From positions 372,001 to 436,000 of the forward strand of contig NZ_JAATOT010000002.1 in assembly GCF_011806455.1 (NCBI RefSeq): a stretch of 64,000 nucleotides of DNA, given 5' to 3'. Numbering within the stretch: position 1 is the stretch's first letter; every line of letters starts with the position of its first letter. The DNA comes from Celeribacter sp. HF31 (GTDB lineage: Bacteria > Pseudomonadota > Alphaproteobacteria > Rhodobacterales > Rhodobacteraceae). Shown piece after piece: positions 3,918 through 22,007 of this stretch. A program made the position numbers and the translations under genes. Under the pieces are notes generated by a model that saw only the letters and a program-made list of their open reading frames with translations, searched no databases and was not told where the DNA came from.

Positions 3918-5684
3918 TTAGTTCGCCATGGCCAGCTGTTTCGGCAGTTTAAAGGTCCAGACCGTGCCGCCTTGGTTCAGGTAGTTGACCTTTTTGGCCA
4001 CTTCCCCGCCCCAGAGCGGAACCGCGCCGCCCCAGCCGGAGACGATGGTGACATATTGCTCGCCTTCGAACTCATAGGTCACCGGCTGACCGACAATCCC
4101 AGACCCGGTCTGGAAGGACCAAAGCTTTTCACCGGTCTCGTCATCCAACGCAATGAACTCACCTTCCGGGGTGCCAAAGAACACGAGGCCGCCCGCGGTG
4201 GTCATCACCCCGCCCCAAAGCGGTGCGTCGTTTTGGAAGTCCCATTTGATGTCGCCGGTTTCCGGCTCGATGGCTTTCAAAGACCCGATGTGGCTCTCGA
4301 AAATGGGCTTGATGGTAAAGCCAGCGCCCAGGTAAGCCGCGCCTTTTTTGTAGGAAATCGGCTCGTTCCAGATGTCCATGCCCCATTCGTTCGACGGCAC
4401 GTAGAACATCCCGGTCTTCTGGCTGTGCGCCATCGGCATCCAGTTTTTGCCCCCCAGGAAGGACGGCACGGAGAACACCATTTCGCCCTTGTCGGCCTCC
4501 AAAGGATTGCCCGGGCGTGCGTCCTCGACAAAGATCGGACGACCCGTCTCGTCGATGCCCTCGGCCCAGGTGATGTTGGACACGAACGGCGTTGCGTTGA
4601 CGAAAGCACCGTCTTCACGGTTCAGCACGTAGAAGAACCCGTTGCGGTCGGCGGTGGCGTAGCGTTTGTTGCCGTCTTTGTCGGTGAAAGCGACCACTTC
4701 GTTCACCCCGTCAAAGTCCCAGCCTTCGCGCGGCGTGGTTTGGAAATGCCATTTGATCTCGCCAGTGGCCGGGTCGATGCCCAGACGCGAGGCGGCATAG
4801 AGGTTGTCGCCCGAATTGTCGTCCTTCGGCGTTCCGGCATCGCGCAGATGCGAGTTCCACGGCGCGGGGTTGCCCGTGCCAAAGATGAGCGTGTCGGTAT
4901 CGGCATCATAAGAGCCGCCAAGCCAGGTGGCACCGCCGCCGGTCTTCCACATATCGCCCGGCCAAGTGGCGTTAAGCTCACCCGTCATGGTCGATTCTTC
5001 GCCATTGAGCGTGCCCATATGGCCCTCGATCACCGGACGGGTCCAAACGAGATCGCCGGTTTCGGCGTCCCGCGCCTGCACTTCGCCGACGATGCCGAAT
5101 TCACCGCCAGAGTTGCCGGTGATCACCAGACCGTTCACGATCAAGGGCGCGGCCGTGTAGGAATAGCCTTCTTTGTAGTTGGCGATTTTCTTGTTCCATT
5201 TCACATCGCCGGTCTTGAGATCGAGCGCCACGATGCGCGCATCCAGCGTGCCGAAATAGATGTTGTCGCCATAAATCGCGCCTCCACGGTTGATCACATC
5301 ACAGCAGGGCAAGATGCCTTCGGGCAGACGGGCGTCATACTGCCAAAGCTCCTCGCCGGTCTTCAGATCAATCGCATACATCCGCGAATAGGATCCGGTC
5401 ACATACATGACACCGTCGTAAATCAGCGGCTGGGTTTCCTGACCGCGTTGTTTCTCACCGCCAAAGCTGAAGGCCCAGGCCGGGAAAAGGTTTTCGATGT
5501 TGTCCTTATTGAGCGTATCGAGCGGCGAATAGCGCTGAAGATCGCGCCCCATGCCGTTGGTCAACACATCGCCCGGCGTGGTGGCGTCGTTCAAAAGGTC
5601 TTCTTCGGTGACCCCGGCAACACCCCCGCCCGCAAGCCCAAAGCTCATGATGGCCGCCGTCGCAGCCGTTACAAACCTGTTCAT
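3918..5684 (-). CDS. PQQ-dependent alcohol dehydrogenase, predicted lanthanide type
   Basis: A periplasmic eight-bladed quinoprotein of 588 residues that oxidises an alcohol to the aldehyde and passes electrons to cytochrome c. The start MNRFVTAA at 5684 follows GGGAGGAC; a signal peptide precedes about residue 24. Repeated beta-propeller tryptophan motifs (such as ETGDIKWDF) are present. Cys127-Cys128 form the adjacent-cysteine disulfide site next to PQQ. Metal-site residues are Glu195 and Asn272, and in GWDFDGVNE the catalytic Asp323 is followed by Asp325. An Asp two residues after the catalytic Asp is the mark of lanthanide-dependent enzymes (XoxF, ExaF, PedH); Ca enzymes have Ala, Ser or Thr. 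The substrate (methanol, ethanol or other) is not decidable here. Operator-like sites lie upstream. Confidence 0.93.
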
Positions 5685-5778
5685 TTTAGTCCTCCCATAG
5701 CAGACCGCACCCCTGACGTATGAAAGGACCACGGCTCATATCCTTCCATTATTGACAGGGCCGATCCTGCGGATATTG

Positions 5779-5824
5779 GCCATTGGTCGTAGGCCTTCTG
5801 CGACCCTCCTGTCCTTTGGTCGTA
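5779..5824. promoter_or_regulatory. candidate operator pair between the dehydrogenase and importer genes
   Basis: In the divergent gap, GCC-ATTG-GTC (5779-5788, centre 5783.5) and GAC-CCTC-CTG (5802-5811, centre 5806.5) are centred 23 bp apart; each keeps one half of the GAC-N4-GTC motif seen elsewhere in the cluster. A third TTTGGTCGTA lies at 5815-5824. The match is weaker than at the other four regions. Confidence 0.45.
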
Positions 5825-5875
5825 TTTCGCGCGCCCATCGCCCGACCTAGGCTCTTTTGTCAGGGAGGACTGCAC

Positions 5876-6859
5876 ATGACGAAATTCACCAAAGGACTGG
5901 CCGCTCTGGCGGCGGCGATGTCACTGACCGGCGCACTGGCCGCCAAGGCCGACGACCTGCCGACGCTCAAGGCCGCGCTTTACATGTCCGGCACCGTGGC
6001 CTGGGAGGTCGACACCATCCGCCACAACGGCTTTGACACCGCGCAGGGCTTTACCCTCGAGGCCATGGATGTCGCGGGCGCCGCCGCTTCGCGCGTGGCA
6101 TTGGCGGCGGGCGAAGTCGATATGATCGTCGCCGATTGGCTCTGGGTCGCCGCCCAACGCGCCGAGGGCAAGGACTACGTGTTTCTCCCCTATTCCAAAG
6201 CCGTCGGCGGGCTTTACGTGCCGAAAGACAGCCCCGCGCAAAGCCTTGCCGATCTCGAAGGTGGCAAGATTGGCATCGCGGGCGGGCCGAATGACAAAAG
6301 CTGGCTGATCCTGCGCGCCTATGCCGAGCAAATGACCGGTCAGGACCTCGCCTCTGAGACCGAACAGGTGTTCGGCGCGCCGCCGCTGATCTTCAAATCC
6401 GCGCTCTCGGGCGAGCTGGATGGGGCGATCAATTTCTGGCATTTCGGCGCCAAGATGGAGGCCTCCGGCATGCGCCTTCTGGCCTCCACCTCTGAGGCCG
6501 CTCTGGCTTTGGGTCTGAACCCTGACACGCCGCTTTTGGGCTATGTTGTGCGGGGCGACGTGTTGTCCGAACATCCCGAAGTGGTCAAAGGTCTGGCCGC
6601 CGCCTCGCGTCAGGCCAAGGACCTTCTGGCCACGGATGACGCGGCTTGGGATCGGTTGCGCGAGCGGATGAACGTCAAAAACGACGCGCAATTCGAGGCC
6701 TTGAAAGCCGGTTGGATCGCGGGCATCCCCGCCGAGGGCCCGGTCTCCGAAGAAGACGCCGCCAAGATGCTGGCCCTCATGGCGAAACTCGGCGGCGAAG
6801 ATCTGGTCGGCCAAGCGACCACCCTGCCCGCAGGCACCTTCTTTGATCCGGCCTCATGA
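5876..6859 (+). CDS. ABC importer substrate-binding protein (SsuA/TauA/NMT1 type)
   Basis: Periplasmic binding protein of 327 residues with a signal peptide (about 1-25) and the two-lobed fold of the nitrate/sulfonate/taurine class: LKAALYMSGTVAWEV at the first strand, VALAAGEVDMIVADW, GGKIGIAGGPNDKSWLILRAY and GELDGAINFWHF. The ligand is unknown. The ATG at 5876 follows CAGGGAGGAC. It overlaps the ATPase gene by four bases (ATGA). The likely permease partner is at 17695-18501, 10 kb away, behind a similar operator. In this context the ligand may be connected with the quinoprotein, but that is inference. Confidence 0.85.
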   Translation: MTKFTKGLAALAAAMSLTGALAAKADDLPTLKAALYMSGTVAWEVDTIRHNGFDTAQGFTLEAMDVAGAAASRVALAAGEVDMIVADWLWVAAQRAEGKDYVFLPYSKAVGGLYVPKDSPAQSLADLEGGKIGIAGGPNDKSWLILRAYAEQMTGQDLASETEQVFGAPPLIFKSALSGELDGAINFWHFGAKMEASGMRLLASTSEAALALGLNPDTPLLGYVVRGDVLSEHPEVVKGLAAASRQAKDLLATDDAAWDRLRERMNVKNDAQFEALKAGWIAGIPAEGPVSEEDAAKMLALMAKLGGEDLVGQATTLPAGTFFDPAS

Positions 6860-7515
6860 GACATGACCTGTCCATCCTCTCGGACAGGCTCAAAGCGGCT
6901 TTCCCTGTGAAGGCCGCCTTGCTGCACCTCGATCTGCGCTCTGTTTCCGCCGGGGGGGCGCACATCCTCGGGGCTATCAGGCTCGACATCCGTGCGGGCG
7001 AAACCGTTGCGCTGACCGGCCCGTCGGGGGTCGGAAAAACCACGCTGTTGCGGGTCATCTCCGGGCTGCACCGCGACTATGAGGGCGAGATCACCCGCCC
7101 GCCCCGGCTGTCGGCTGTGTTTCAAAGCCCGACGCTTTTGCCCTGGCGCAGGGCCTGGCAGAACCTCACCCTGACCACCGGGATTTCCAAGGCACAGGCG
7201 CTCGACTGGCTCACCGTCGTCGGCCTCGCCGATCATGCCGATCATTTCCCCGAACAGATGTCTTTAGGCCAACAGCGCCGCCTCGCACTGGCCCGCGCCT
7301 TTGCCGCCTCGCCCGATCTGTTGCTGATGGACGAGGCCTTTGTGTCGCTCGACCCAAAGCTGGCCGATGAGATGATGCAGCTGTTCGAGACGCTGCGCAC
7401 CCGGCACGGCACGACGACGCTTTTGGTCACCCATGATCGCACGGAGGCCGCGCGGCTCGCGGATCGGGTGCTGCGCCTCGACGGCCACCCTGCCACGCTC
7501 CGCGCGGAGACCTAA
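6856..7515 (+). CDS. ABC importer ATP-binding protein
   Basis: Cytoplasmic ATPase, 219 residues, of the SsuB/TauB type. Walker A is GPSGVGKTT, the Q-loop is in AVFQSPTLLPWR, the signature is the variant MSLGQQRRLALARA, Walker B is LLLMDEAF and the switch histidine is in LVTHD. The PTLLPWR segment is typical of nitrate/sulfonate importers. It overlaps the binding-protein gene. No permease follows; the next gene is a convergent cytochrome c. Confidence 0.88.
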   Translation: MRHDLSILSDRLKAAFPVKAALLHLDLRSVSAGGAHILGAIRLDIRAGETVALTGPSGVGKTTLLRVISGLHRDYEGEITRPPRLSAVFQSPTLLPWRRAWQNLTLTTGISKAQALDWLTVVGLADHADHFPEQMSLGQQRRLALARAFAASPDLLLMDEAFVSLDPKLADEMMQLFETLRTRHGTTTLLVTHDRTEAARLADRVLRLDGHPATLRAET

Positions 7516-7516
7516 A

Positions 7517-7915
7517 TCAGTCTGAAATCGACGCCAGATAGGTGACGATGAAATCCTGCACGGTTGGGTCGCTCACGCCCACGTGGCGCATTTTCGTGCC
7601 CGGCACCAAAGCGTCGTTGTCCTCCATCCAGGCGCGGATCGCGCCCTTGGTCCAGACAAACCCGGCATTCTTCAACGCCTCGGAATAGGGGTAACCTTCA
7701 AAGGTCCCCGCCTCACGCCCCACGACGCCGGTCAGAAGCGGGCCATAGCTCGCGCGGTCGGCATCGACGGAGTGGCAGCGGTGGCATTCCTTGTCGAAAA
7801 ACTCCGCGCCAGCGGCGGTTTTGATGGCGTCATATTCGCCCGCAAAGGCAACGGTTGCAAAGAGCGCTGGAAATACAACGGGGATCAAGGATGCGGCGAT
7901 ATGTTTGGCTTTCAT
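7517..7915 (-). CDS. class I cytochrome c, periplasmic
   Basis: A 132-residue monoheme cytochrome with a signal peptide (about 1-25), the heme site CHRCH, YGPLLTGVVGREAGT and the sixth ligand Met in GTKMRH. It resembles cytochrome c550/c2-type carriers and probably takes electrons from the quinoprotein alcohol dehydrogenase to a terminal oxidase; that role is inferred from context. The start at 7915 follows AGGAGA. The two best operator-like repeats lie 80-120 bp upstream. Confidence 0.88.
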   Translation of the reverse strand: MKAKHIAASLIPVVFPALFATVAFAGEYDAIKTAAGAEFFDKECHRCHSVDADRASYGPLLTGVVGREAGTFEGYPYSEALKNAGFVWTKGAIRAWMEDNDALVPGTKMRHVGVSDPTVQDFIVTYLASISD

Positions 7916-7995
7916 GGGGATGTCTCCTACGCGACTGTTTGAGGGATCATCGCGCGGAAGCCCCCACCAAAGGGTTGACCTGCCTCAAGAAAAGG

Positions 7996-8036
7996 CCCCG
8001 ACATTGGTCGGGGGGCTTCTACGACTTTGGTCGTAG
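7996..8036. promoter_or_regulatory. candidate operator pair upstream of the cytochrome c gene
   Basis: Two perfect 7-bp inverted repeats, each with a 4-base spacer: CCCCGAC-ATTG-GTCGGGG (7996-8013) and CTACGAC-TTTG-GTCGTAG (8019-8036). Both have the core CGAC-NTTG-GTCG, and their centres are 23 bp apart. The left one, read on the minus strand, is followed by CCTTTTCTT and could instead, or also, terminate the upstream Sel1 gene. Confidence 0.7.
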
Positions 8037-8043
8037 TCTTGCG

Positions 8044-8613
8044 TCAAAACAGGTTGAGATAGCGCCATTCATCGGCGTCCGGCGTCACCTCGTCGAGATC
8101 GTAATCCGCGCGCTGCAACCGCTGCGCCACGGCCAGGCCATCATTGGCCGCCTCATCCACAAGCGCCCGGCCCGCCTCTTCGTCGCGCGCCACGCCCCAG
8201 CCGCGCATCAGGTCCAGCCCGTGGTTGAACTTGCCCACCGGATCGCCCGCCTCGGCCGCTTTGCGATTCCACTCGGCTGCGGCCTCCAAATCTTGCGGCG
8301 CGCCCAGACCGTTGTCATCGAGCTGGCTCATCCAGGTCATCGCCCCGGTCCAGCCCGCATCCGCACAGTTGGAAAACAGCTCGCGCGCCAACTCGTGACG
8401 CCCGGATTTGGTGATCAGATAGCCCTGAGAACAGATCACCATGCCGGTGTCGCCCTCGCGGATGTTCTCCATCACCTGCGCCATCGACATCTCATGCGGG
8501 TTGAGCGTGCCCTGCTCGTCGACATGGGTGTCGGGGCCAAGCTCCATAGGTAAATCTTCGGCGAAGAGCGGCGCGGCCAAAACCAGCGCCAGACCAAGGC
8601 AAATGCGTTTCAT
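8044..8613 (-). CDS. exported Sel1-repeat protein
   Basis: A 189-residue protein with a signal peptide (MKRICLGLALVLAAPLFAED) and helical Sel1/TPR-like repeats (HELARELFSNCADAGWTGA, DLEAAAEWNRKAAEAGDPVG, EAGRALVDEAANDGLAVAQ). Such repeats mediate protein contacts. It has its own candidate double operator in the quinoprotein regulon. Its precise role is unknown. The start at 8613 has the ribosome site GGGAGGACTGTC upstream; longer frames lack one. Confidence 0.75.
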   Translation of the reverse strand: MKRICLGLALVLAAPLFAEDLPMELGPDTHVDEQGTLNPHEMSMAQVMENIREGDTGMVICSQGYLITKSGRHELARELFSNCADAGWTGAMTWMSQLDDNGLGAPQDLEAAAEWNRKAAEAGDPVGKFNHGLDLMRGWGVARDEEAGRALVDEAANDGLAVAQRLQRADYDLDEVTPDADEWRYLNLF

Positions 8614-8664
8614 GTGACAGTCCTCCCAGTGCCCAGCATGCCAGAGGTCACGCCCGCCACGTAT

Positions 8665-8702
8665 GGGACAAAGGTCCAAGCCGCCCTGCGACCAAAGTCG
8701 CA
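8665..8702. promoter_or_regulatory. candidate operator pair upstream of the Sel1 gene
   Basis: TGCGAC-CAAA-GTCGCA (8687-8702, perfect 6-bp arms) and GGGAC-AAAG-GTCC (8665-8677, core GAC-N4-GTC), with centres 23 bp apart. They lie between the stop of the ABC-2 permease gene and the Sel1 start, 58 and 81 bp upstream of its ATG. A CATACGT sequence next to the inner site, also found upstream of the dehydrogenase gene, could be a -10 element. Confidence 0.7.
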
Positions 8703-8705
8703 CAT

Positions 8706-9497
8706 TCAGATCTTACGCCCGATCATCCGCTTCGCCGGGTCATAGCCCCAAAGTGCAAGCGCCATGAAGACGATCAAAGCCGTGAGACAGACGCCCCAAG
8801 CCAGCGGATTGGGCGTCAGATAAAGCGCAAAGCGGATGCTTTCGACCCCGTAGGAAAACGGATTGAGGCGACAGATCGTCTCCAAAAGCGCGGAGGCCTC
8901 CGCCATTTTCCAAAGCGGATAGAGCGCGGTGGAGAGGAAGAACATCGGGAAGATGACGAAATTCATCACGCCTGCGAAATTCTCCAACTGTTTGATTGTG
9001 GACGACAAAGCGATACCCAAGGCGCCAACCATGAGGGCGGTGAGAAACAGCGCCGGCAGGATCGCGACATAGCCCAGAGGCGAAAACGTGATGCCGTAGA
9101 GCGCGCAGATCGCAAGAAACGCATAGGCTTGAAGCACCGAAATCAGCGCCCCCGCGATCAGCTTGCAACTCAAAAGCCACCAGCGCGGCAGCGGCGCTGT
9201 CAGCAAAAGCCGCATCGTCCCCATCTCGCGGTCCATCACCAGAGAGAGCGAGGATTGCATGCCGTTGAACAGCAAAATCATGCCGCAGAGCCCCGGCACG
9301 ATATAGGTCTCATAGGTGATATAGGTCTGATAGGGCGGCGTGATCGAGAGGCCCAGAGCCGCACGAAAGCCCGCCGCAAAGACAAAGAGCCACACCAGCG
9401 GGCGCACCAGCGCCGCCAGCATCCGCGCACGTTGGCCCAGAAAGCGCAGCGCCTCGCGGTGGCAGATCACCCTAAGTGCAGCCAAGGCATGTCTCAT
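8706..9497 (-). CDS. ABC-2 type transporter permease of the quinoprotein system (LutF-like)
   Basis: A 263-residue ABC-2 membrane protein with about six helices. It starts at MRHALAALRVI (9497), overlapping the ATPase stop by four bases. Typical features are SLVMDREMGTMRLLLTAPLPRWW, MNFVIFPMFFLSTALYP and LNPFSYGVE. It pairs with the ATPase at 9494-10222. This permease/ATPase pair is a known companion of PQQ alcohol dehydrogenases, and equivalents in Methylobacterium (lutE/lutF) are needed for lanthanide transport. The direction and substrate here are not shown by the sequence. Confidence 0.85.
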   Translation of the reverse strand: MRHALAALRVICHREALRFLGQRARMLAALVRPLVWLFVFAAGFRAALGLSITPPYQTYITYETYIVPGLCGMILLFNGMQSSLSLVMDREMGTMRLLLTAPLPRWWLLSCKLIAGALISVLQAYAFLAICALYGITFSPLGYVAILPALFLTALMVGALGIALSSTIKQLENFAGVMNFVIFPMFFLSTALYPLWKMAEASALLETICRLNPFSYGVESIRFALYLTPNPLAWGVCLTALIVFMALALWGYDPAKRMIGRKI

Positions 9498-10222
9498 GCG
9501 CCCTCGCTTTCGGTCAGTCTCAGAAAATGCGCCGTCAAAGCCGCCCCCGTGACAGGCACTGGCCCCTGCTCCAACACCTGCCCACGATGCAAAACGACAA
9601 GCCGATCCCCGGACCAAATCTCATCGGTCAAATGCGTCGCCCAGAGCACCGCCAACCCCGTGTCCTGCGCCAGCCCATGGACATGCGCGACCAGATCGCT
9701 GCGGGTCTGCGCATCCAGCCCCACGGTCGGTTCGTCCAAGAGCAACACCTCGGGCCGATGCATCAGCGCGCGGGCAATTTCCAGCCGCCGCCGATGCCCG
9801 CCGTTCAACTCCCGCACCCGCTCGCTCGCGCGTTCCTCCATGCCCAAACGATCCAAGGCCTCGGAGGCCGCAAGCCGCGCCGCGCGGCCTGTGATGCCAT
9901 GCAACCCCGCAAAATAGAGCATATTGCGCCAGACCGAGAGATCGAGATCAAGCGTCGGCTGTTGAAACACCACGCCGGTTTTCGACAGAGCGCCGAGCGG
10001 ATCACTGGACACATCATGCCCCGCAATCTCGATCTGCCCGGAGCGGGGCGTGAACAGCCGCGTCAAAAGTCCGAAAAGCGTCGATTTCCCCGCCCCGTTC
10101 GGCCCCAAAAGCGCGCAGAACTGACCCGGCGCGACCGTAAAACTCACCGCATCCAGCGCGCGTTTCGCACCCCAGTCATGGGTGATGTTTTCGACGCTTA
10201 ACCCGGTCATTCGCCCGCTCAT
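9494..10222 (-). CDS. ABC transporter ATP-binding protein of the quinoprotein system (LutE-like)
   Basis: A 242-residue ABC ATPase. Walker A is GPNGAGKST, the Q-loop is VVFQQPTLDLDLSV, the signature is the unusual ELNGGHRRRLEIARAL, Walker B is VLLLDEPTVGLD and the H-loop is ATHLTDE. The signature LNGGH replaces LSGGQ, a variant I associate with this family. A second in-frame ATG (residue 5, MTGLSVENI, 10210) is an equally plausible start. It is coupled to the permease gene and lies 10 bp after the exported-protein gene. Confidence 0.87.
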   Translation of the reverse strand: MSGRMTGLSVENITHDWGAKRALDAVSFTVAPGQFCALLGPNGAGKSTLFGLLTRLFTPRSGQIEIAGHDVSSDPLGALSKTGVVFQQPTLDLDLSVWRNMLYFAGLHGITGRAARLAASEALDRLGMEERASERVRELNGGHRRRLEIARALMHRPEVLLLDEPTVGLDAQTRSDLVAHVHGLAQDTGLAVLWATHLTDEIWSGDRLVVLHRGQVLEQGPVPVTGAALTAHFLRLTESEGA

Positions 10223-10231
10223 TCGCCCGCC

Positions 10232-10672
10232 TTATTCAATCGTGATCTCCAACCGCTGAAGATCGCCCGAGGATTGTGGCACGCGCAGCTCGTAGCGGCC
10301 CGGTTTGATGGCGACAAAGCCGATCTCCATCGTGCCCGCCTCATCGAATTCGACGCTATCGATGCCCAATGGCCGGATTTCCAGACCTTCGATCACGATT
10401 TCATCGATCCAGATCGCCCGAAAGAACCCGGCCCCTTCGAGCGCCAGTTCTTGCGAGCCGTCGGCCTCAATCTCGATCTCGTAATAGGTGCCGGATTTGA
10501 GCTTAAGCGGCGCTTCGGCCAAGGGCTGCCCAGCGGACAACATGATCGGCGGCAGGTCTTCGGAATTACTCGCCGACAGGATGCCCGCGAGGCCGAATTT
10601 GGGGGCATCGTCATCATCTGCGAAGGCGGATGTGGCGGCGAGAAGAGCTGTGAAGAGTAGAGCGTAACGCAT
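10232..10672 (-). CDS. small exported protein of the quinoprotein/lut-like operon
   Basis: A 146-residue protein with a cleavable signal (MRYALLFTALLAATSAFADD) followed by an all-beta domain with cupredoxin-like strands (YYEIEIEADGSQELAL, GTMEIGFVAIKPGRYELRV). It lacks the His/Cys/Met copper ligands of true cupredoxins, but has many acidic residues, including DDDD just after the signal. It sits between the beta-propeller and ABC genes of the same operon. A periplasmic metal- or cofactor-handling role is only inference. Confidence 0.7.
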   Translation of the reverse strand: MRYALLFTALLAATSAFADDDDAPKFGLAGILSASNSEDLPPIMLSAGQPLAEAPLKLKSGTYYEIEIEADGSQELALEGAGFFRAIWIDEIVIEGLEIRPLGIDSVEFDEAGTMEIGFVAIKPGRYELRVPQSSGDLQRLEITIE

Positions 10673-10724
10673 TGAAAAAGCCTCTTTCTAAGAGTTCAGG
10701 GACGCACGGCTGCGCCCACTCCAT

Positions 10725-11693
10725 TTACGGGCGCATGGCTGCGCCCCAAGGAAACCGCCCCACCTTGATGGTCTTGACCGGCTTGCGGGAGGCGACGTCG
10801 ATCACGGTGACATCGCCGCTCACCCCGTTGGTGGTGAAAAGCTGGCTGTGATCCGGCGAAAACGCCATGTGCCAGACCCGGCGCCCGACGAGGATGTACT
10901 CCTCGACCGCAAGCGTCTCGGTGTTCACGACGGCGACATGGTTCGACGGGCCAAGTGCCACGAAAGCGGTCTTGTGATCCGGCGTCAGTTCGAAGCCGAC
11001 GGGTTGGATCAGATCCGGGTGCACGCCCTGAATTTCAAAGTGAATTTTGCCGATCTCGCTTTGGTCCGTCGTGTCAAACACCGTGATCGTACCGCCAATT
11101 TCCGACGACACCCAAAGCTCGCTTCCATCTTTGACAAATTCCGCATGACGGGGCCGCGCATCGACCAGCGTGTTGGCGTAAATCTCATGCGTGCCCGTGT
11201 CGATCCAATGCGCCATATTCGTCGTCTCCGACGTAGTGATCACCGTCTTGCCATCGGGCGACACGGCCATGCCTTCGGGCTCGATACCGACGTTGATCTG
11301 GGTCACCACTTTGCGCGTCTCGACATCCACAACCGTGGTCACCGCGTCGTCCTCATTGGCGATCCAGAGATGCCGGTCATCGGGGTGCAGCACGAATTGC
11401 TCCGGGTCCTCGCCTGAGGGCAGGTCGTGCAGAATCTCGCCCGTCTCCGGATCCATCACCTGCACCGCATCGCTGTCGGAGGCGCAGATATAGAGCCGCG
11501 TGTAATCGGAATTAAAGGTGATGCCGCGCGGGCGTTCGCCGACCTCGATCATGCGCACCACCTCCAATGTATCGATGTCGATCACCGACAGCGTGTCGTC
11601 TTTTTCATTGCTGACCCAAATCTCTGAGGCTTGCACGGGCAAAGCAAACGCGAGGGCCAAAAGACTGGCAGACATTTTAGTTTTCAAAGGCAT
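10725..11693 (-). CDS. exported YVTN beta-propeller protein of the quinoprotein system
   Basis: A 322-residue periplasmic seven-bladed beta-propeller with a signal peptide (ending PVQASEIW) and repeated blades such as DDTLSVIDIDTLEVVRMIEVG, GDVTVIDVASRKPVKTIKVG and HVAVVNTETLAVEEYILVG. It matches the YVTN-repeat family found beside PQQ alcohol dehydrogenases. Its biochemical role is not established. The start at 11693 (MPLKTKMSAS) has GGAAAG upstream and overlaps the preceding gene by 17 bp; a start at 11675 (MSASLLAL) would remove the overlap. Confidence 0.85.
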   Translation of the reverse strand: MPLKTKMSASLLALAFALPVQASEIWVSNEKDDTLSVIDIDTLEVVRMIEVGERPRGITFNSDYTRLYICASDSDAVQVMDPETGEILHDLPSGEDPEQFVLHPDDRHLWIANEDDAVTTVVDVETRKVVTQINVGIEPEGMAVSPDGKTVITTSETTNMAHWIDTGTHEIYANTLVDARPRHAEFVKDGSELWVSSEIGGTITVFDTTDQSEIGKIHFEIQGVHPDLIQPVGFELTPDHKTAFVALGPSNHVAVVNTETLAVEEYILVGRRVWHMAFSPDHSQLFTTNGVSGDVTVIDVASRKPVKTIKVGRFPWGAAMRP

Positions 11694-12870
11694 GGCAGTC
11701 ACTTTCCATCTGATCCAATCCCAAAGTATCGAGCGGATTTCGAGCATGTTCGAACCCTTCCGGCGGGGCCGAGGCCACCTGTGCATGGGCGTTCACCACC
11801 GGGATCGGTTGCCGCATCTGGCCGTTCCAAGTGCGAAAACTCAGGGGCCGGCCTTGGAAGGCCGCCAGTTCAAACCCGTCCGACAAGATGTAGTCGCGCA
11901 GCACCGCAGGGTCAGCCGATCCGGTCCGCGTCACCGCCTCCCCGATCACCCGCACGGCGGCCCAGGCGGCGTAATCCTCCGCCGTCATGTCGCGCTGCGC
12001 GAGGTCTTCGAACCGGCTTTGCAACTGCGCCGCGCCCCATTGTTCGACGACGGGCGCCCAGGCTTCCGCCACCAGTCCCACGGCACCCGCGACCGGGCGC
12101 GGCTCCCATGTGTTGTGTTCGATGTAGCGGGCGAAATCGTCATGCGCGTCGGCGACCAACACAACGTCATGCGCCTTGAATTTTTGCGTGAACAACGGCA
12201 CCTCGCGCGCCGCTGCACGCCGCAGGTCCGTGTCAAAGGACCAGCGCGATTCTGAGACAATCTTGAGGCCGAATTTCTGCGCGGCATCACGGTAACTTCG
12301 CGCGAGGGCGGCGTCTTCCGCACTCGGCCCTTCGATCAGCGCCAGCCTGGTCCAGCGTTTGGTCATCAGAACCTGCATCAGGGCATCCGCTTCCATGCCC
12401 AGCTCCGGCACGGTGTGAAACAGATTGGCGCGGCAGTCACCGTCGCGCAAGCTGGGCGCCTTGGAGGAGACATTGAACAGCAAAGTCGCCCCCGCCGATG
12501 GCAGATCGACCACTTGGAGCAATGCCTCCGCCGACATGTCGAGCAACACGAGGTCATGGCCAGCGAGCATCGTCTGCGCCGCCGCGACGACATCGCCGTC
12601 GGGCGCGAGTGACACCACATCCATCGTATACTGATGCCCCAGAAACCCACCCGTTGTCTGGTTGTCTTTGAGCGCCAGTTCCGCGCCTTCGATGCCACGC
12701 GCAGGCGGGATCGGGTCGAGGCCCGACAACACAGGACGCGGCGGGGTCTCAAGCCGCAGATAGCCGATTGAAATCTCGATCTCTTCCGCCCGAACCGAGG
12801 CAGGCATCACAGAGAGACAGGCCATAAACCCACAGGCCCTAATTCCTATGGCACACCAAGTCCTTAGCAT
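11677..12870 (-). CDS. ABC transporter substrate-binding protein of the quinoprotein system (LutA-like)
   Basis: A 397-residue periplasmic protein with the type I Leu/Ile/Val-binding fold: signal peptide to about residue 28 (SVRAEE), IEISIGYLRLE at the first strand, GIEGAELALKDNQTTGGFLG, DLVLLDMSAEAL, and a C-terminal lobe with VAGAVGLVAEAWAPVVEQWG. It opens a minus-strand operon (binding protein, propeller, exported protein, ATPase, permease), like the lut genes used for lanthanide uptake. A binding protein combined with an ABC-2 permease is unusual. The start at 12870 is six bases after GGGAGG; another ATG lies one codon upstream. Candidate operators lie just upstream. Confidence 0.83.
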   Translation of the reverse strand: MLRTWCAIGIRACGFMACLSVMPASVRAEEIEISIGYLRLETPPRPVLSGLDPIPPARGIEGAELALKDNQTTGGFLGHQYTMDVVSLAPDGDVVAAAQTMLAGHDLVLLDMSAEALLQVVDLPSAGATLLFNVSSKAPSLRDGDCRANLFHTVPELGMEADALMQVLMTKRWTRLALIEGPSAEDAALARSYRDAAQKFGLKIVSESRWSFDTDLRRAAAREVPLFTQKFKAHDVVLVADAHDDFARYIEHNTWEPRPVAGAVGLVAEAWAPVVEQWGAAQLQSRFEDLAQRDMTAEDYAAWAAVRVIGEAVTRTGSADPAVLRDYILSDGFELAAFQGRPLSFRTWNGQMRQPIPVVNAHAQVASAPPEGFEHARNPLDTLGLDQMESDCHAFEN

Positions 12871-12899
12871 CATCGTCCTCCCTGGAAAAACCCTATGCC

Positions 12900-12963
12900 G
12901 CACACGGTCGGAGGCGAACCACGACCAAAGTCGCATGCCCATTCGGACAGTGGCACCAAGGTC
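12900..12963. promoter_or_regulatory. candidate operator array in the divergent promoter region
   Basis: CGAC-CAAA-GTCG at 12922-12933 (centre 12927.5) is flanked at exactly 23 bp on each side by half-matching sites: GCA-CACG-GTC (12900-12909, centre 12904.5) and GAC-AGTG-GCA (12946-12955, centre 12950.5). A further CAC-CAAG-GTC lies at 12954-12963. The array lies between the minus-strand lut-like operon and the plus-strand cytochrome c/XoxJ-like pair and could serve both. Confidence 0.65.
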
Positions 12964-13019
12964 TAATGGCGCTGTCCTTCGCGGCAGAGATATTCATGGG
13001 AAAACGATGGGAGGACCCA

Positions 13020-13706
13020 ATGAAAAACGCTGTTAAACGCACCGCTTTGCTCGCCGCACTCACGACCGCAATCGCAACCGTCGCCTTCGCCCATGGCGAT
13101 GTGACGCCGCAGCCGGTGAACACCGATGCCCTGCCCGATGTGGGCGAAGAGTGGCTGACCGAAAACCCCTACCGCGCTGAGGAAGCGGGCGAAGAGGTCT
13201 GGCTCAAAGCGATTGAGATCGGCTCGTCCGGCTACAACCAGAACTGCGCGCGCTGTCATGGCCTCGGCGTTGTGTCGGGCGGTCTGGCCCCCGATCTGCG
13301 CTATCTCGAGGCCGAGGAATATGGCGACGAATGGTTCGTCGAGCGCTTCCAGCACGGCATGACCCAGAACGGCATCACCAAGATGCCTGCCTTTGGCGAA
13401 CTTCTGGGTCAAAAAGCCGCTTGGGCGATCCGCACCTATATCGAAACCCGCCCCGACGATGGTGCGCTGGACGATCACATGACGCGTCTGATCGAAATTC
13501 GTGACCACCTTTTGGCCGGGGACGTGGAAAACCCGACCGGGGTGCAGGAAGAGCTTGCCAGCATCGCCGCCGAGGTCGAAACCGGATCCGGCGCGCCGGT
13601 CGCCGACAGCGTGGCCTTCGAGGCCGCGCGCAACATGACCGACGATCCCGCGACGTGGAAACACACTGCCGATCTTCTGACGGTGGGCCTCTCTGCGGCG
13701 GAGTAA
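13020..13706 (+). CDS. PedF-like cytochrome c550
   Basis: An exported monoheme cytochrome c of 228 residues with a signal peptide (to AFAHGD), the heme site CARCHGLG, DLRYLEAEEYGDEWFVERFQ and the likely axial Met in GITKMPAFGE. It resembles the PedF/c550 family that accepts electrons from quinoprotein ethanol dehydrogenases. About 80 residues after the heme domain form an extra Ala/Glu-rich C-terminal part. The ATG at 13020 follows GGGAGGACCCA. The XoxJ-like gene follows after three bases. Confidence 0.87.
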   Translation: MKNAVKRTALLAALTTAIATVAFAHGDVTPQPVNTDALPDVGEEWLTENPYRAEEAGEEVWLKAIEIGSSGYNQNCARCHGLGVVSGGLAPDLRYLEAEEYGDEWFVERFQHGMTQNGITKMPAFGELLGQKAAWAIRTYIETRPDDGALDDHMTRLIEIRDHLLAGDVENPTGVQEELASIAAEVETGSGAPVADSVAFEAARNMTDDPATWKHTADLLTVGLSAAE

Positions 13707-13709
13707 ACC

Positions 13710-14615
13710 ATGCGCACGCCGCTTCGAACAGTTGGGCCTCTTTTGGGTCTTCTGGCCGGTCTCGCCTCCGCGGGGCCGGCCTTCGCGCGCTGTGAGGACT
13801 ACGTCCCCGGCCCGAAACCGCAGAACACCTTTTCGCAGGATGTCGGCCGCGAGTTCGACCGCATCATCGACGAGGGCTGGATCGAATTCGCCCTCTACGA
13901 AGCGTTCCCGCCCTGGTCCTATGAAGAGGGTGGCAAAGCCAAAGGCATCGACGTCGAAATCGGCCGGATCATCGCCGAAGACCTGGGGGTCACGCCCCGC
14001 TTTCGCCTCGTGCAGGCGGATGAGACCCTCGATGCCGATCTGCGCAATTACGTCTGGAAAGGCGCCACGGTGGGCGGGCGCGTCTCTGACGTCATGCTCC
14101 ATGTGCCCTATGACAGCGAATTGACCTGTCGCATCGAACAGGTTGTTTTCACGGGGCAATATGCGGGCGAGGCGCTGGCCATCGGCTATAGCGAGGCGGA
14201 GTACCCGGACGATCTTCCGACGCCCGCCTACTTCCGCTTTGACACGGTGGCCGTCGAAAACGACAGCCTGTCGGATTTCTACCTGACCTCTGTCGGGCGC
14301 GGATCGGTGGGCGATGCAATCCACCGCTACCCCTCGCCCGAGGCCGCCGTCGCGGGTATGACTGCGGGCGAGACCATGGCGGTCATGGCGCCGCTCGCGG
14401 TGATCGAGGCGGGTCTTGAGGAAGGCTTCGGCGTGCATCAGCCGCCCCTGCCCGGTCTGGTGCGCAACAGCTGGTCCGTGGGTGTGGCGGTCAACCAACA
14501 GCACCGCGATCTGGGCTATGCCGTCGATTACGCGATTGAAAAGGCGCTGGCGGATGGGCGGATCGAAGCGATCTTTGCCGAACATGGGCTGAGCTTTTTG
14601 CCGCCCGAGCGGTGA
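13710..14615 (+). CDS. MxaJ/XoxJ-like quinoprotein-associated periplasmic binding protein
   Basis: A 301-residue exported protein with a signal peptide (to AFARCEDY) and the SBP_bac_3 fold: WIEFALYEAFPPWSYEEGGKAKGIDVEIGRIIAEDLG, then DVMLHVPYD. MxaJ/XoxJ proteins bind the dehydrogenase and are thought to aid its activation or maturation, instead of working with a transporter. A cytochrome c gene immediately upstream reproduces the xoxG-xoxJ arrangement. The dehydrogenase itself is 8 kb away in the same cluster. Confidence 0.83.
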   Translation: MRTPLRTVGPLLGLLAGLASAGPAFARCEDYVPGPKPQNTFSQDVGREFDRIIDEGWIEFALYEAFPPWSYEEGGKAKGIDVEIGRIIAEDLGVTPRFRLVQADETLDADLRNYVWKGATVGGRVSDVMLHVPYDSELTCRIEQVVFTGQYAGEALAIGYSEAEYPDDLPTPAYFRFDTVAVENDSLSDFYLTSVGRGSVGDAIHRYPSPEAAVAGMTAGETMAVMAPLAVIEAGLEEGFGVHQPPLPGLVRNSWSVGVAVNQQHRDLGYAVDYAIEKALADGRIEAIFAEHGLSFLPPER

Positions 14616-14618
14616 GGA

Positions 14619-15503
14619 TCACAGCGAGCTCAGATTGCCCGCGACATCGACCAAATAGACCCGAGACAGGCCGAGCTTTTGCTTGGCCGTCTCTATGTCT
14701 GAGCGCGACATCAGGCAAAAGGCCGTCGAGGCCGCATCCGCCAGCGCCGCCTTACCGGCACCTTTTGCGACCACGGTCACGGTCGACCACATGGGCACCC
14801 CGCCTTTGGGGTGCAAGATATGGGTCTCGCCGCCCACCGTCATCGCCGTTGGGCTGGAAGTGGCCATCGCCCCCGCGCTCAGGTGAAGCGCGCCCAGACG
14901 TCCGGCTTGGGGGTCTTCGAGACCAAGCCGGAACGGCCCGCCCAATGCCGCAAATTCCCCCATATTGATCAGCGCCTCACTGTACCCGCGCGCCACCAGA
15001 AGGGCTGCGATCCGATCCGTCGCATAGCCCTGCGCAATGCCGTTGAAGCTAAGCTTTTGCCCTTCGCCCAGCTTGACGCGATCAGCCTCAAGCATGACCC
15101 GATCCAGACCGATCAGATCCTGCGCTGCCAGGACATCTTCACCCTGAGCCAAAGCCTCCCAGAGCGGTTGAATCGTCGGATCGAAGAGACCGCCCGTCGC
15201 GGCGTGAACCCGGTGTGACAGCTGCAAAATCTCGCGCATCTCCGGTGACAGAGTCCCCTTCCCACGCGCATTGAGGCGCGACAAATCGGAGGCCGGATCA
15301 TAAAGCGAAAAGCGCCGCTCCAAGGCACGGATTTGCGCAATCACCGCTTGCAAATCCGCCTCGACCAGCCCGCGCGGTCCACGCAGATCGAGCGAAACCT
15401 CCGCGCCGAAGGCATGGCCCCTCCAACGTTCCGTTGTGGCCCATGCGGGTGTTGCCAAAGCACAGGCTGAAAGCGTGACAAACCGACGTCGAGAAAGTCT
15501 CAT
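14619..15503 (-). CDS. apbE: FAD:protein FMN transferase
   Basis: A 294-residue ApbE family enzyme that transfers FMN from FAD to a Thr/Ser of target proteins, on the outer face of the inner membrane. The N-terminus has a Tat-like RRRFVTLSACALA signal. Family segments are FNGIAQGYATDRIAALL, ALINMGEFAALGG and DAASTAFCLMS. The start at 15503 overlaps the stop of the NosR-like gene by four bases, so that protein is the obvious target (predicted FMN site at Thr161). Confidence 0.9.
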   Translation of the reverse strand: MRLSRRRFVTLSACALATPAWATTERWRGHAFGAEVSLDLRGPRGLVEADLQAVIAQIRALERRFSLYDPASDLSRLNARGKGTLSPEMREILQLSHRVHAATGGLFDPTIQPLWEALAQGEDVLAAQDLIGLDRVMLEADRVKLGEGQKLSFNGIAQGYATDRIAALLVARGYSEALINMGEFAALGGPFRLGLEDPQAGRLGALHLSAGAMATSSPTAMTVGGETHILHPKGGVPMWSTVTVVAKGAGKAALADAASTAFCLMSRSDIETAKQKLGLSRVYLVDVAGNLSSL

Positions 15504-17596
15504 GCGGCACGCTCCTGAGGTTTGCCCTGACGTTTCGCCGCCAAGATCAGAGGCACGCATTGGGTCGGATCGTCATGGATTTTGACGCAATCAAGACATT
15601 GGAAACATTCATCATATTGGATTTCTCCGGTCTTCTTGATCGCCCCGTAGCGGCATTTGACACGGCAGAGCTGGCACGGGCTGCCACACTCTTTGCGGCG
15701 CGCGATCCAGTCGCGGCCCCGGAGCACCCCGCCAATCGCCATGACAGCGCCCAAGGGGCAGACATAGCGGCAGAAGCCTTTGAAAAAGACCACACTCGTG
15801 GCCAAGAGGAACAGCGCATAGGCCACATAATACCATTCACGCTGGAAATAGACTGTGACAGCGGTTTTGAACGGCTCGATCTCGGCGGCTTTTTCGGCGT
15901 GGTCCGGGGCCACGAAAGCCACCGCGATCAACCCCGCCAGCGCGACGTATTTGCCTTTCTTGAGCCGTCGATCCCAGAGCGGCGACGCCTCGCGTTGGCG
16001 CAGCCCCAAAGCCTTGCCGAGATGGTGCAACAGCTCCTGCATCGCGCCAAACGGACAAAGCCAACCACAAAACAGCCCCCGCCCCCAAAGCACAAAGCCG
16101 AGGAGGCTCACCGCCCAGATCATCAGAGAAAACGGGTCATACAACAGCACCGAGAGACTGCCGTCCCCGATGGCGGCGCGCAGCACGGCGAGCACAGTGA
16201 CGATTGAAAGCTGCCCCTGTCCCCACCAGCCGATAAATCCGATGACAACGCAAAGGATACCAAGCCGCAGCGCGGTGAAATGCCGAAGCGCGGCGAAGCG
16301 ATGCATCAAGGGGCCGACAAGCACCAAAAGCGTGGTCAGGAACAGCGCCAGAGCAATCAGATCGGCCTTGCGATTGAACGCCGCCTCAAGCCAGCCGGGC
16401 AGCGGTTTATGCACCTCGGGCACGCTGTAAAACCGCTCCGGTGCGCTATAAGCGAGGTCGAAATGTGCGTCGCCGATCTCTGGTTGGAACATGCCGTGTT
16501 CACGCACCGCCTGCACCCGCAGCACCCACTCCGAGATCGGATCGAACCCTAGACGCCGATCGGCACGCAGGATCATCGCGGTCTCAGGTTCGGGCACATC
16601 GGTGGCCAGTTCGACCCAGATGTCGGCATCGCGCAGCGCCACGGGAAAGCCGCCCTGCTCCGCAGACAGCCGATCCGGCGCGGTGTTGCGCACGAAGTCT
16701 TCCGACACCAAGCCGTGCCGTCCGTAGTCCATGACCAACAGAGGCTCGGCCTCCGGCGAGACCGCGAGAAACCGCTGTACCTCATCGAAAGTGCCCGGGG
16801 ACAGGACCGCCCGCGCCACCGACGGCGCACCGATGTCGACGAGCCAAAGATCGAGGTAGCGGCCCTCCGGGTCCGCCTGCGCCTCCTGGTCATCATGGGC
16901 CCAAATCGTACCGGCAAAACCAGCATCCAGCTCAGCGTTGGTGACGAAGAGGCGCCGCGCGATGCCTTGGTCCACGAGATCGGCCCAGCTCAGCGCCTCA
17001 TTGACGTCCGCATCGGGGCGCGCGGGCGTGGATGTCGCCAGCCCCTGCATCTTGTCGCGGGCCACGATCAGCGTGGCAGCAAGGATACTTTCATGCGCGA
17101 TTCGCACGCTGGCCGTGGCCTTCGTGACGCCGTCGAGATAGACCAGATCGGACCCGCCGCCGCCAGCGCCATAAGGCACGCCGACGACGAGGCTTTGGGT
17201 GATCGAGAGGCCAGGATACTGCGCCAGAAACTCGCGAAACGGCGCTTCGCCAAGACCCGACACAAAGACCGGCTCATATTGCGACAGCAAGCGCACATCG
17301 ATAAAGACGCCAGATTTATCCAAAAGAACCAAGGCGTTGATCGGCTTACCTGAGAAGCCTGGCAAAGGCGCAAGAGGGCCGGTTTCGAAGACATAGCCCA
17401 CTTCGGCGCCGCCGGAATTCAAAAGCTGATAGACGCCCCGCTCGTCGATGCCTTCGCCCAAGGCGTAGGGCGGGACAATCAATTTCGCGATCTCGTCGCG
17501 CGGCAAAGGCTCCGGCCCGGCGGCGGCGACCGACAGGGGAAAGGTGATGAGCACGATCCAAATCAGCGCCCGGAATGAGACAATGAGCCTGCGCAT
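15500..17596 (-). CDS. NosR/NirI-like FMN-binding polyferredoxin membrane protein
   Basis: A 698-residue inner-membrane electron-transfer protein. It has a signal sequence, a periplasmic FMN-binding domain with the flavinylation motif DGVTKAT (residues 155-161), about five helices (roughly 420-600), and cytoplasmic iron-sulfur sites CGWLCPFG, CRYVCPLG, CGSPCQLCRVKC and CFQCLDC. NosR moves electrons from the quinol pool to periplasmic N2O reductase. No nos genes are present here, so a role in the quinoprotein system is likely but its acceptor is unknown. It is coupled to apbE. The start has no strong ribosome site. Confidence 0.88.
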   Translation of the reverse strand: MRRLIVSFRALIWIVLITFPLSVAAAGPEPLPRDEIAKLIVPPYALGEGIDERGVYQLLNSGGAEVGYVFETGPLAPLPGFSGKPINALVLLDKSGVFIDVRLLSQYEPVFVSGLGEAPFREFLAQYPGLSITQSLVVGVPYGAGGGGSDLVYLDGVTKATASVRIAHESILAATLIVARDKMQGLATSTPARPDADVNEALSWADLVDQGIARRLFVTNAELDAGFAGTIWAHDDQEAQADPEGRYLDLWLVDIGAPSVARAVLSPGTFDEVQRFLAVSPEAEPLLVMDYGRHGLVSEDFVRNTAPDRLSAEQGGFPVALRDADIWVELATDVPEPETAMILRADRRLGFDPISEWVLRVQAVREHGMFQPEIGDAHFDLAYSAPERFYSVPEVHKPLPGWLEAAFNRKADLIALALFLTTLLVLVGPLMHRFAALRHFTALRLGILCVVIGFIGWWGQGQLSIVTVLAVLRAAIGDGSLSVLLYDPFSLMIWAVSLLGFVLWGRGLFCGWLCPFGAMQELLHHLGKALGLRQREASPLWDRRLKKGKYVALAGLIAVAFVAPDHAEKAAEIEPFKTAVTVYFQREWYYVAYALFLLATSVVFFKGFCRYVCPLGAVMAIGGVLRGRDWIARRKECGSPCQLCRVKCRYGAIKKTGEIQYDECFQCLDCVKIHDDPTQCVPLILAAKRQGKPQERAA

Positions 17597-17631
17597 CTGG
17601 TCACGCTAACAATGCCCGCGCGCGCGGCGAA

Positions 17632-17667
17632 TACGACCAAAGTCCAGCACGCCCTGCGACCCCGCCC
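17632..17667. promoter_or_regulatory. candidate operator pair, NosR-like/permease divergent region
   Basis: TACGAC-CAAA-GTCC (core 17635-17644, centre 17639.5) and GCGAC-CCCG (half site, GAC at 17658-17660, centre 17662.5) again have a 23-bp centre spacing. They lie 43-66 bp upstream of the NosR-like start and 32-55 bp upstream of the permease start. Confidence 0.6.
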
Positions 17668-17694: not shown

Positions 17695-18501
17695 ATGCAA
17701 AAGACGCGGAGATATTCGGCAGGCTATACCGCCCTTTCCTTGGGCGGACTGGTTGCGCTCTGGGCCTTTGCGGCCTGGGTGAAAGCCGACCCGGAGATCC
17801 TGCCGTCGCCCATGGCAGTCATGGTGGTTTTGGTCGATCTGATCGCCAAGGGCACGCTCTGGCCGCAGATGCAGGCGACGCTCACCCGTGTGATCCTGTC
17901 CTTCACGGCGGCCATGGTGCTTGGCACCGCCCTTGGGATTTTGCTTGGCCTGTCGCCGCGTCTCAATCGCCTGTTTGACCCTTGGGTGACGGTGTTTCTG
18001 AACCTGCCCGCGCTGGTGGTCATCGTGCTCTGTTATCTCTGGATCGGTCTCAACGAGGTGGCCGCGATCACCGCCGTCACACTCAACAAACTGGCGCAGG
18101 TGACGGTGACGCTGCGCGATGGAACGGCTGCGCGGGATCGGCGGCTCGACGAGATGGCGGGCCTCTACCGGATGCCCCGCGCGCGCTACCTGCGCCACGT
18201 CGTGTTGCCGCAGCTTGCGCCCTATCTCGCCATTGCAGGGAGGAACGGCTTGGCGATGATCTGGAAGATCGTGCTTGTCGTTGAATTTCTAGGCCGTTCC
18301 AATGGGATAGGCTTCAAAATTCATCTGCATTTTCAAAACTTCCAAACTGCCTATGTGCTGGCCTATGCGCTGAGTTTCGTGGCCGTGATGCTGGTGATCG
18401 AGATCGCGGTGATCCAGCCCTGGGAACGTGCTGCGGCTCGGTGGCGGGGCGACACGGCGAGCGATGCACGCGCCCTCACGCCTCGTCCTGCGGCGCCATG
18501 A
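17695..18501 (+). CDS. ABC importer permease (SsuC/TauC type)
   Basis: A 268-residue inner-membrane permease with about six helices, the leading motif DPEILPSPMAVMVVLVDL and the EAA loop DEMAGLYRMPRARYLRHVVLPQLAPYL. It is of the nitrate/sulfonate/taurine class, so it is the natural partner of the binding protein and ATPase at 5876-7515, which lack a permease. The start at 17695 follows GGAGGAGTTC. Its last 26 bp overlap the end of the convergent sensor kinase gene. Confidence 0.87.
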   Translation: MQKTRRYSAGYTALSLGGLVALWAFAAWVKADPEILPSPMAVMVVLVDLIAKGTLWPQMQATLTRVILSFTAAMVLGTALGILLGLSPRLNRLFDPWVTVFLNLPALVVIVLCYLWIGLNEVAAITAVTLNKLAQVTVTLRDGTAARDRRLDEMAGLYRMPRARYLRHVVLPQLAPYLAIAGRNGLAMIWKIVLVVEFLGRSNGIGFKIHLHFQNFQTAYVLAYALSFVAVMLVIEIAVIQPWERAAARWRGDTASDARALTPRPAAP

Positions 18502-21975: not shown

Positions 21976-22007
21976 GATGTCCTCCCTCAGGTGAGGGTGA
22001 CGCAAAC

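Follow-up and report, generated by a model that had tools for sequence, protein, structure and literature searches.

Which protein reads the inverted repeats that stand before one operon after another in a quinoprotein gene cluster of Celeribacter sp. HF31, and to what effect? The window analysed here, a 64-kb stretch at positions 372001–436000 of one contig of the 3.6-Mb genome, carries genes for alcohol oxidation dependent on pyrroloquinoline quinone (PQQ), an ATP-binding cassette (ABC) system and cytochromes, together with a LuxR/NarL-type response regulator, here called RR1, at 22008–22721 on the minus strand. An earlier note on this DNA had pointed to repeats with a GAC-N4-GTC core, set in pairs 23 bp apart, as candidate sites of that regulator. 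From conservation before orthologous genes, distance to promoter-like sequence and gene linkage, we put at roughly 80% the probability that the repeats are operators of RR1, through which it would activate lanthanide-type PQQ alcohol-oxidation operons. The operator is real and conserved and of a known general kind; the regulon is proposed as new, and the 23-bp addition is specific to one clade.

The unit of the motif is a 17-bp box, roughly TACGACCWTGGTCGNAT. All six cores named in the earlier note were found, at 8000–8009, 8023–8032, 8667–8676, 8690–8699, 12923–12932 and 17635–17644; the longer pattern CGAC-N4-GTCG occurs six times in the window, where 2.6 occurrences would be expected (at least six in 1 of 100 shuffles), four of them inside the cluster. 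A spacing between centres of exactly 23 bp, as the note had it, was found for five pairs: two of them join two full cores (8004.5/8027.5 and 8671.5/8694.5), two a full core and a facing half-site (12904.5/12927.5 and 17639.5/17662.5), and one a core matching at five of six positions and a facing half-site (5783.5/5806.5). The half-site that the note placed at 12950.5 is weak; a better second box lies there at 12951–12967 on the plus strand, its centre 31 bp from that of the first box.

Each box can be placed before a gene. The alcohol dehydrogenase gene exaA has TACGACCAATGGCCAAT at 5775–5791 (minus), with AATAAT 28 bp from the GTC position and the facing half-site CGAC at 5801–5804 as its partner at 23 bp, and a half-conserved box, TTTGGTCGTAT, precedes sbp (5876–6859) at 5809–5825 (plus), with TAGGCT beginning 29 bp from GTC by hand count. 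Before cytC stand a promoter-proximal palindrome (7996–8012, minus) and a second one 23 bp off (8019–8035, minus); before sel1, a box at 8663–8679 (minus) with the −10-like CATGCT at 29 bp and, 23 bp upstream, a partner palindrome at 8686–8702 (minus); and before the pedA1-like gene, a box at 12919–12935 (minus) with TAGGGT at 30 bp. The divergent pedA1 and pedF promoters have two boxes, that toward pedF reading TGGCACCAAGGTCTAAT (12951–12967, plus). The NosR-like and permease genes, which diverge from 17596 and 17695, have a single box in common at 17631–17648, with TAGCGT at 29 bp on the NosR-like side, TACAGT at 30 bp on the permease side and a facing half-site 23 bp away at 17657–17660. 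In the window, −10-like hexamers at 28–30 bp are present for the NosR-like, permease, pedA1, sel1 and exaA genes, those of the last two not being of the form TANNNT; none was found for the two cytC palindromes.

The same motif is kept before orthologous genes. Our conservation set comprised the best 80 of 421 relatives' propeller-gene loci plus the window (81 loci), with upstream regions taken from 220 bp before to 30 bp after the estimated gene start; expected core counts come from shuffled sequences, and controls for genome-wide counts from reversed patterns. Among 832 gapped palindromes tested in 358 target regions, GAC-N4-GTC ranked first, with 215 occurrences against 12.6 expected and six in 425 control regions, and the second-ranked ACC-N2-GGT is the same motif read inward. 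Upstream of the seven target genes, cores were 6 to 23 times as numerous as in shuffled sequence; these genes are those for TIGR03863 (pedA1; 80 cores in 80 regions, 68 of them with a site, 3.6 expected), the NosR-like protein (45 cores in 51 regions, 2.5 expected), cytC (29 in 26, 1.2), the permease (23 in 31, 1.6), exaA (21 in 69, 3.3), sel1 (18 in 61, 2.9) and sbp (9 in 38, 1.6). Six operon-internal genes can be summarised as at or below expectation: abc1 (0 cores in 38 regions, 1.2 expected), abc2m (1 in 68, 6.6), abc2a (6 in 69, 4.9), duf146 (4 in 63, 5.0), prop (0 in 81, 3.9) and apbE (0 in 60, 2.6). Outside the Celeribacter clade the core is present in 142 of 289 target regions. The FIST-domain gene beside RR1 has 6 cores in 43 upstream regions (2.4 expected) and the kinase gene 19 in 50 (3.4 expected); we do not count the latter as regulatory evidence because each of these 19 cores is part of the FIST coding sequence that was matched.

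When the whole 17-bp box was scored with its orientation in 389 regions, where divergent pairs overlap and some boxes are counted from both strands, it was present in 268: before exaA in 66 of 69, sbp in 32 of 38, cytC in 12 of 26, sel1 in 14 of 61, pedA1 in 66 of 80, the NosR-like gene in 33 of 54, the permease gene in 25 of 31 and coxG in 20 of 30. pedF, as an eighth target, has a box in 75 of 79 regions, which may be the pedA1 box read on the opposite strand. The proposal of an operator common to several transcription units is in this way borne out for seven cluster genes, or eight with pedF, and in loci whose titles name Rhodobacterales and Rhizobiales the box reads as a shared operator kept at promoters of orthologous genes.

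A second regularity lies in the distance to a −10-like hexamer. TANNNT starts 29 bp (58 cases) or 30 bp (43 cases) after the first GTC base, a sum of 101 against 268 boxes, with 9 and 5 cases at offsets 28 and 31 and 0–5 at any other offset from 15 to 59. Taking TANNNT as the −10 hexamer would place the box centre at −43.5 or −44.5, a predicted position near −44 that is compatible with that of the published ACTU box described below.

Is the pair, then, the unit that is recognized? In the Celeribacter clade (10 members and 63 boxes in the spacing test) a facing half-site or near-full partner stands at +23 in 34 of 63 and at −23 in 24 of 63, with a background of 1.4% per displacement, whereas in other lineages the figures are 1 of 205 and 5 of 204 (background 1.9%). 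By gene, the clade retains the pair in 10 of 10 members for the NosR-like and permease genes (the same DNA, including the half-site at 17657–17660) and for cytC, in 7 of 8 for exaA and for sbp, in 4 of 8 and 3 of 8 for sel1 and in 4 of 9 and 3 of 9 for pedA1, where the commonest second spacing is instead 31 bp (6 of 9; in the window, the box facing pedF). The commonest spacings of the other lineages are −29 (17 of 204) and −14 (16 of 204), the latter mainly at exaA (15 of 58), where some copies read GGTCGTACGACC. We reject the view that the operator in general consists of the 23-bp pair. What remains of the earlier claim of a cooperative pair is a real arrangement within this clade; the general unit is the single 17-bp box, predicted to lie near −44, and because the partner is confined to the clade, cooperative binding at 23 bp is plausibly a local elaboration rather than a defining feature.

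RR1 heads an operon in the order regulator–FIST–kinase, and its gene lies inside 45 of the 80 fetched loci, often beside exaA and its FIST and kinase genes. We searched 28 cluster genomes, namely the 27 whose fetched locus does not show RR1 and that of locus L024, which has it; eight Celeribacter-clade loci whose stretch stops short of RR1 were left out. An RR1-class gene (56–67% identity) was present in 27 of the 28, including 26 of the 27 genomes without RR1 in the stretch. A survey of 80 family genomes, one per genus, gave 25 RR1-class genes in 24 genomes (53–72% identity, plus the window's own), of which the one of lowest identity (in genome G003) adjoins gfa and may not belong. Of the 26 TIGR03863 genes above cut-off in these 80 genomes, 24 were examined for an upstream core; those at least 50% identical to the window protein (class 1) have one in 10 of 13 cases. 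Across the 80 genomes, 9 of 114 matches of GACYTTGGTCGNA lie within 20 kb of one of the 25 RR1-class genes, against 0.37 expected (binomial P = 2e-10), three of the nine being the window's own. In the HF31 genome, 4 of 16 matches of the 10-mer GACTTTGGTC fall within the cluster's 12 kb, and the paired pattern GTCS-N11-SGAC-N4-GTCS has nine matches (reversed control, four), seven of them at four places in the cluster. RR1 remains the best candidate: gene order and co-occurrence point to it, as does its similarity to ErdR/CrbR.

Several observations weigh against RR1 as the reader of these boxes, or against the counts behind that reading. The bare sequences are scarcely enriched: GACTTTGGTC has 16 matches in the genome against 13 in the control, and GACYTTGGTCGNA 114 against 105 in the 80 genomes, 105 of the 114 matches being distant from RR1 genes. 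The bare motif was rejected as a genome-wide regulon finder because it is about as frequent as its reversed controls, so that the frequency check proposed in the earlier note favours the paired pattern and not the motif alone. RR1's own promoter is unenriched, with 2 cores in 46 regions against 1.6 expected, and 3 of 13 class-1 pedA1 regions have no full core. If the 101 hexamers belong to separate boxes, the other 167 of the 268 boxes lack TANNNT at 29–30 bp; for the best pedF box, −10-like offsets peak at 32 (13) and 24 (8) and not at 29–30, so its geometry is not established. The cytC and sel1 boxes are mostly limited to the clade (10 of 12 and 8 of 14), and exaA/sbp and NosR-like/permease are each one intergenic DNA counted from both strands. 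Loci L180–L182 have RR1-class genes, but no PQQ cluster and no coxG was found in their stretches. The metagenome-assembled genome of L072 has the pedA1 box and only a 41% homologue of RR1.

The last case also speaks for the alternative that survives best, namely that another regulator, such as a different LuxR-type response regulator, mainly binds the boxes and RR1 is linked to them by chance. The genome offers 38 candidate places of homology, of which 35 were scored, and the recognition-helix region KAHVxAIxRKL is, compared by eye, common to related regulators. A single gene of the genome, however, passes an E value of 1e-45, RR1 stays beside exaA and the FIST and kinase genes in many loci, and in L166 and L172 a full core before coxG adjoins RR1 genes even away from a PQQ cluster. 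We regard binding by another regulator as unlikely, though it deserves more weight than any other rival.

A published site bears on how RR1 might act. The earlier note knew of no site of this form for the AgmR, ErbR or FlhR regulators; a site of such form does exist for a related regulator. This is the ACTU motif, bound by CrbR/ErdR (Sepulveda and Lupas 2017, PMC5715377; examples TACTACCATCGTCGAAT and TACGACTAAAGTCTAAA), which shares its form with this box and lies where this box is predicted to lie; ErdR is RR1's best NCBIfam model (NF041830; 175.4 bits against a cut-off of 390, so that the orthology cut-off is not reached). Both are 17-bp imperfect palindromes with the core AC-N4-GTC and flanking TA/AT, and several ACTU examples have the right flank AAT seen here. 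In the accessible text of PMC5715377, activation by a response regulator of the LuxR family depends on the ACTU motif; its copy before acs lies at −52 to −36, and four point mutations there abolish activity. ErdR binds its target promoters in gel shifts, and acetyl phosphate raises its affinity, according to the portion of PMC8402216 consulted. The systems differ in that ACTU belongs to acetate genes of Gammaproteobacteria, works with the kinase CrbS, which has an SLC5 domain, and is described in the accessible text with no mention of a 23-bp partner (PMC5715377), whereas the kinase at 18476–20698 is made up of PAS, HisKA, HATPase and receiver domains, with no SLC5 transporter domain. An acs locus in our collection, L224, combines an ErdR-like regulator (268.7 bits, below 390) and a hybrid kinase without a Pfam-named SLC5 domain with an ACTU-like site, TAATACCAATGTCTAAA, that has TANNNT at 29.

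Observed are the conserved box, its set spacing to a −10-like hexamer, the 23-bp partner of the one clade and the linkage with RR1; binding and activation by RR1, and the signal that it carries, we infer. In the model that we favour, the FIST and hybrid-kinase partners would phosphorylate RR1; a phosphorylated dimer would bind the 17-bp imperfect palindrome centred near −44 and activate the operons for PQQ alcohol oxidation, the PedABC-like ABC system, cytochromes and the NosR-like and ABC genes. Another dimer would, within the Celeribacter clade, contact the partner at 23 bp, be it a full site or a half-site; at exaA and the NosR-like gene this would be the facing half-site at about −67.

RR1 might instead bind the boxes and repress, as proposed for the FlhR-like RfdR of Rhodobacter sphaeroides: in the part of PMC4776306 available, AfdR activates adhI and RfdR is thought to repress it, and both have the gene order of the RR1 operon. 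The predicted centre near −44, however, matches the position of the activating CrbR box (in the accessible text of PMC5715377), and we consider repression improbable, marginally more so than binding by another protein.

Very improbable is the view that the palindromes act as RNA hairpins, that is, as intrinsic terminators at operon ends. Those before cytC can form stems of up to 16 bp with G–U pairs allowed, and T-rich stretches follow some of them, but the promoter-proximal cytC stem is just 4–5 bp in 5 of 10 clade members with the palindrome retained, the NosR-like stem is 3 bp in 10 of 10, and many boxes keep a constant spacing to a −10-like hexamer downstream of them. Hairpins were rejected as the main explanation, since stems are short while palindromes persist; the cytC palindromes (7996–8035) may double as a terminator in some species. 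Chance or base composition, in line with the near-control frequency of GACTTTGGTC and GACYTTGGTCGNA alone, is the least likely reading, given that targets but not internal genes are enriched over shuffles and that the distance to the −10 hexamer is fixed.

Related regulators may have sibling boxes of their own, and here the earlier note's lumping of AgmR, FlhR and the window regulator gave way. TIGR03863 genes below 50% identity (class 2) have a core upstream in 1 of 11 cases, and 5 of the 11 lie within 20 kb, on the same contig, of a gene for RR2, an RR1 paralogue (10 genes in 80 genomes, 39–45% identity to RR1). RR2 looks FlhR-like because it stands within 15 kb of gfa in four genomes and of adhI in five, a judgement from neighbourhood, FlhR itself being outside the comparison. 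Clusters with RR2 (L174, L175, L177, L178) and adhI loci (L233, L238, L240, L256) have a sibling sequence, roughly NACCAWNGTC, which stands upstream of adhI where that gene was located (few loci, without a chance test). In PMC4776306, as far as available, the FlhR/orf2/FlhS, AfdR/AfdT/AfdS and RfdR/RfdT/RfdS systems of Rhodobacter and Paracoccus have, like the RR1 operon, a reading frame between regulator and kinase; they differ in controlling adhI/flhA, for glutathione-dependent formaldehyde dehydrogenase, whereas a motif test found the core upstream of adhI in only 2 of 28 cases in RR1 genomes, which leaves adhI/flhA unsupported as a further RR1 target.

The AgmR/PedR1/ErbR and NosP–NahK systems of Pseudomonas have the same kinds of target as the RR1 cluster (PQQ alcohol dehydrogenase, PedA1A2BC, PedF), and their FIST protein NosP and hybrid kinase NahK resemble RR1's partners (PMC12997753, in the text accessible). 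Ped-like loci of another class, probably Gammaproteobacteria, differ: a search of them for the GAC-N4-GTC box with a −10 hexamer found none, and TACYTTGGTRC, perhaps the AgmR box, occurs in 6 of 8 (L213–L215, L217, L218, L220; no chance test). The words motif, palindrome, inverted repeat, binding site, EMSA and footprint are absent from PMC13390443, and the literature searched, by titles and abstract openings and mostly without subscription journals, yielded no description of this box for a PQQ cluster. No operator sequence for a regulator of alcohol oxidation by quinoproteins appeared in the papers searched either.

The analysis covered ten RR1 stretches away from a PQQ cluster (L166–L172 and L180–L182), L167 and L171 showing the regulator alone of the three operon genes. 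Seven of the ten (L166–L172) contain coxG and five (L166–L169, L172) coxL. Genes for coxG and a molybdenum hydroxylase resembling carbon monoxide dehydrogenase (CODH) are often near RR1 and PQQ clusters, in L166–L172 and in 22 of the loci L017–L096. Before coxG the full core is rare (3 of 30 usable regions, L166, L172 and L173; 1.1 expected) and the half-site TTGGTC/GACCAA abundant (20 against 1.8 expected), often within TACACCC-N2-GGTCGNAT, so the coxG box, as predicted here, is usually imperfect on its left arm, like the published acs example TACTACCATCGTCGAAT.

More tentatively, and with rather less confidence than doubt, we hypothesize that, across Rhodobacterales and Rhizobiales, one RR1 module with an ACTU-like box near −44 co-controls three functions, namely PQQ alcohol oxidation of the lanthanide type, an ABC system of the PedABC type and a CODH-like molybdenum hydroxylase whose operon is led by coxG. 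Paralogues (ErdR/CrbR, the FlhR-like RR2, AgmR) would each recognize a sibling box, told apart by the outer base of the half-site (GAC, AAC or TAC), a recognition code that would keep parallel alcohol, aldehyde and acetate circuits apart. With so conserved and precise a box, members of the RR1 regulon could be predicted in many Alphaproteobacteria and put to direct test. A single two-component system would then be tied to alcohol oxidation, to electron transfer and perhaps to a molybdenum hydroxylase, and the family of regulators with similar sites offers a natural set for studying how specificity persists.

The cluster includes the PQQ alcohol dehydrogenase gene exaA (exaF/pedH-like; 3918–5684, TIGR03075), whose product has WDFD at residues 322–325 and a Cys–Cys pair; we take the second Asp as the mark of a lanthanide-type enzyme and the Cys pair as that of an ethanol-type one. 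There follow, on the plus strand, an SsuA-like binding protein (sbp) and an ATPase (5876–7515), then the genes for a cytochrome c (cytC, 7517–7915) and a Sel1-type protein (sel1, 8044–8613). A block at 8706–12870 encodes an ABC-2 permease, an ATPase, a 146-residue protein, a TIGR03866 propeller and the TIGR03863 protein, the pedA1-like gene of the last at 11677–12870. The plus-strand pair of pedF and a binding-protein gene spans 13020–14615, pedF, a cytochrome c-550 above the TIGR04494 cut-off, running from its ATG at 13020 to 13706. Next come an ApbE gene, the NosR-like gene (15500–17596, minus) and the SsuC-like permease gene (17695–18501, plus). The regulator operon, on the minus strand, consists of the hybrid histidine kinase (18476–20698, NahK/ErcS-like), the NosP-like FIST protein (20695–22005) and RR1, the two partners scoring below their NCBIfam cut-offs (NosP 377 of 450 bits, near_NosP_CTERM 354.7 of 400, NahK 386 of 1500).

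Several cluster genes correspond to genes that the accessible text of PMC12997753 lists for the PedABC lanthanide transporter. The minus-strand reading frame at 12963–14585 ("u540") is very likely not a gene and was set aside as an antisense artefact, the real genes there being pedF and the substrate-binding protein on the plus strand; it is absent from the control regions of the ranking of 832 palindromes. Although a PQQ enzyme is encoded, pqqB and pqqE have no match above curated cut-offs in the 96%-complete genome, which offers no promoter of theirs to examine as box targets, and Celeribacter sp. HF31 may rely on external PQQ. Among named organisms in the collection, Celeribacter sp. PS-C1 and C. 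ethanolicus stand closest to it (propeller protein 94% identical). At cytC, an FNR/DNR-like site, TTGW-N6-WCAA (7975–7988, minus), lies between the boxes and the gene start in 9 of 10 clade members, which suggests an oxygen or nitric oxide input at this promoter.

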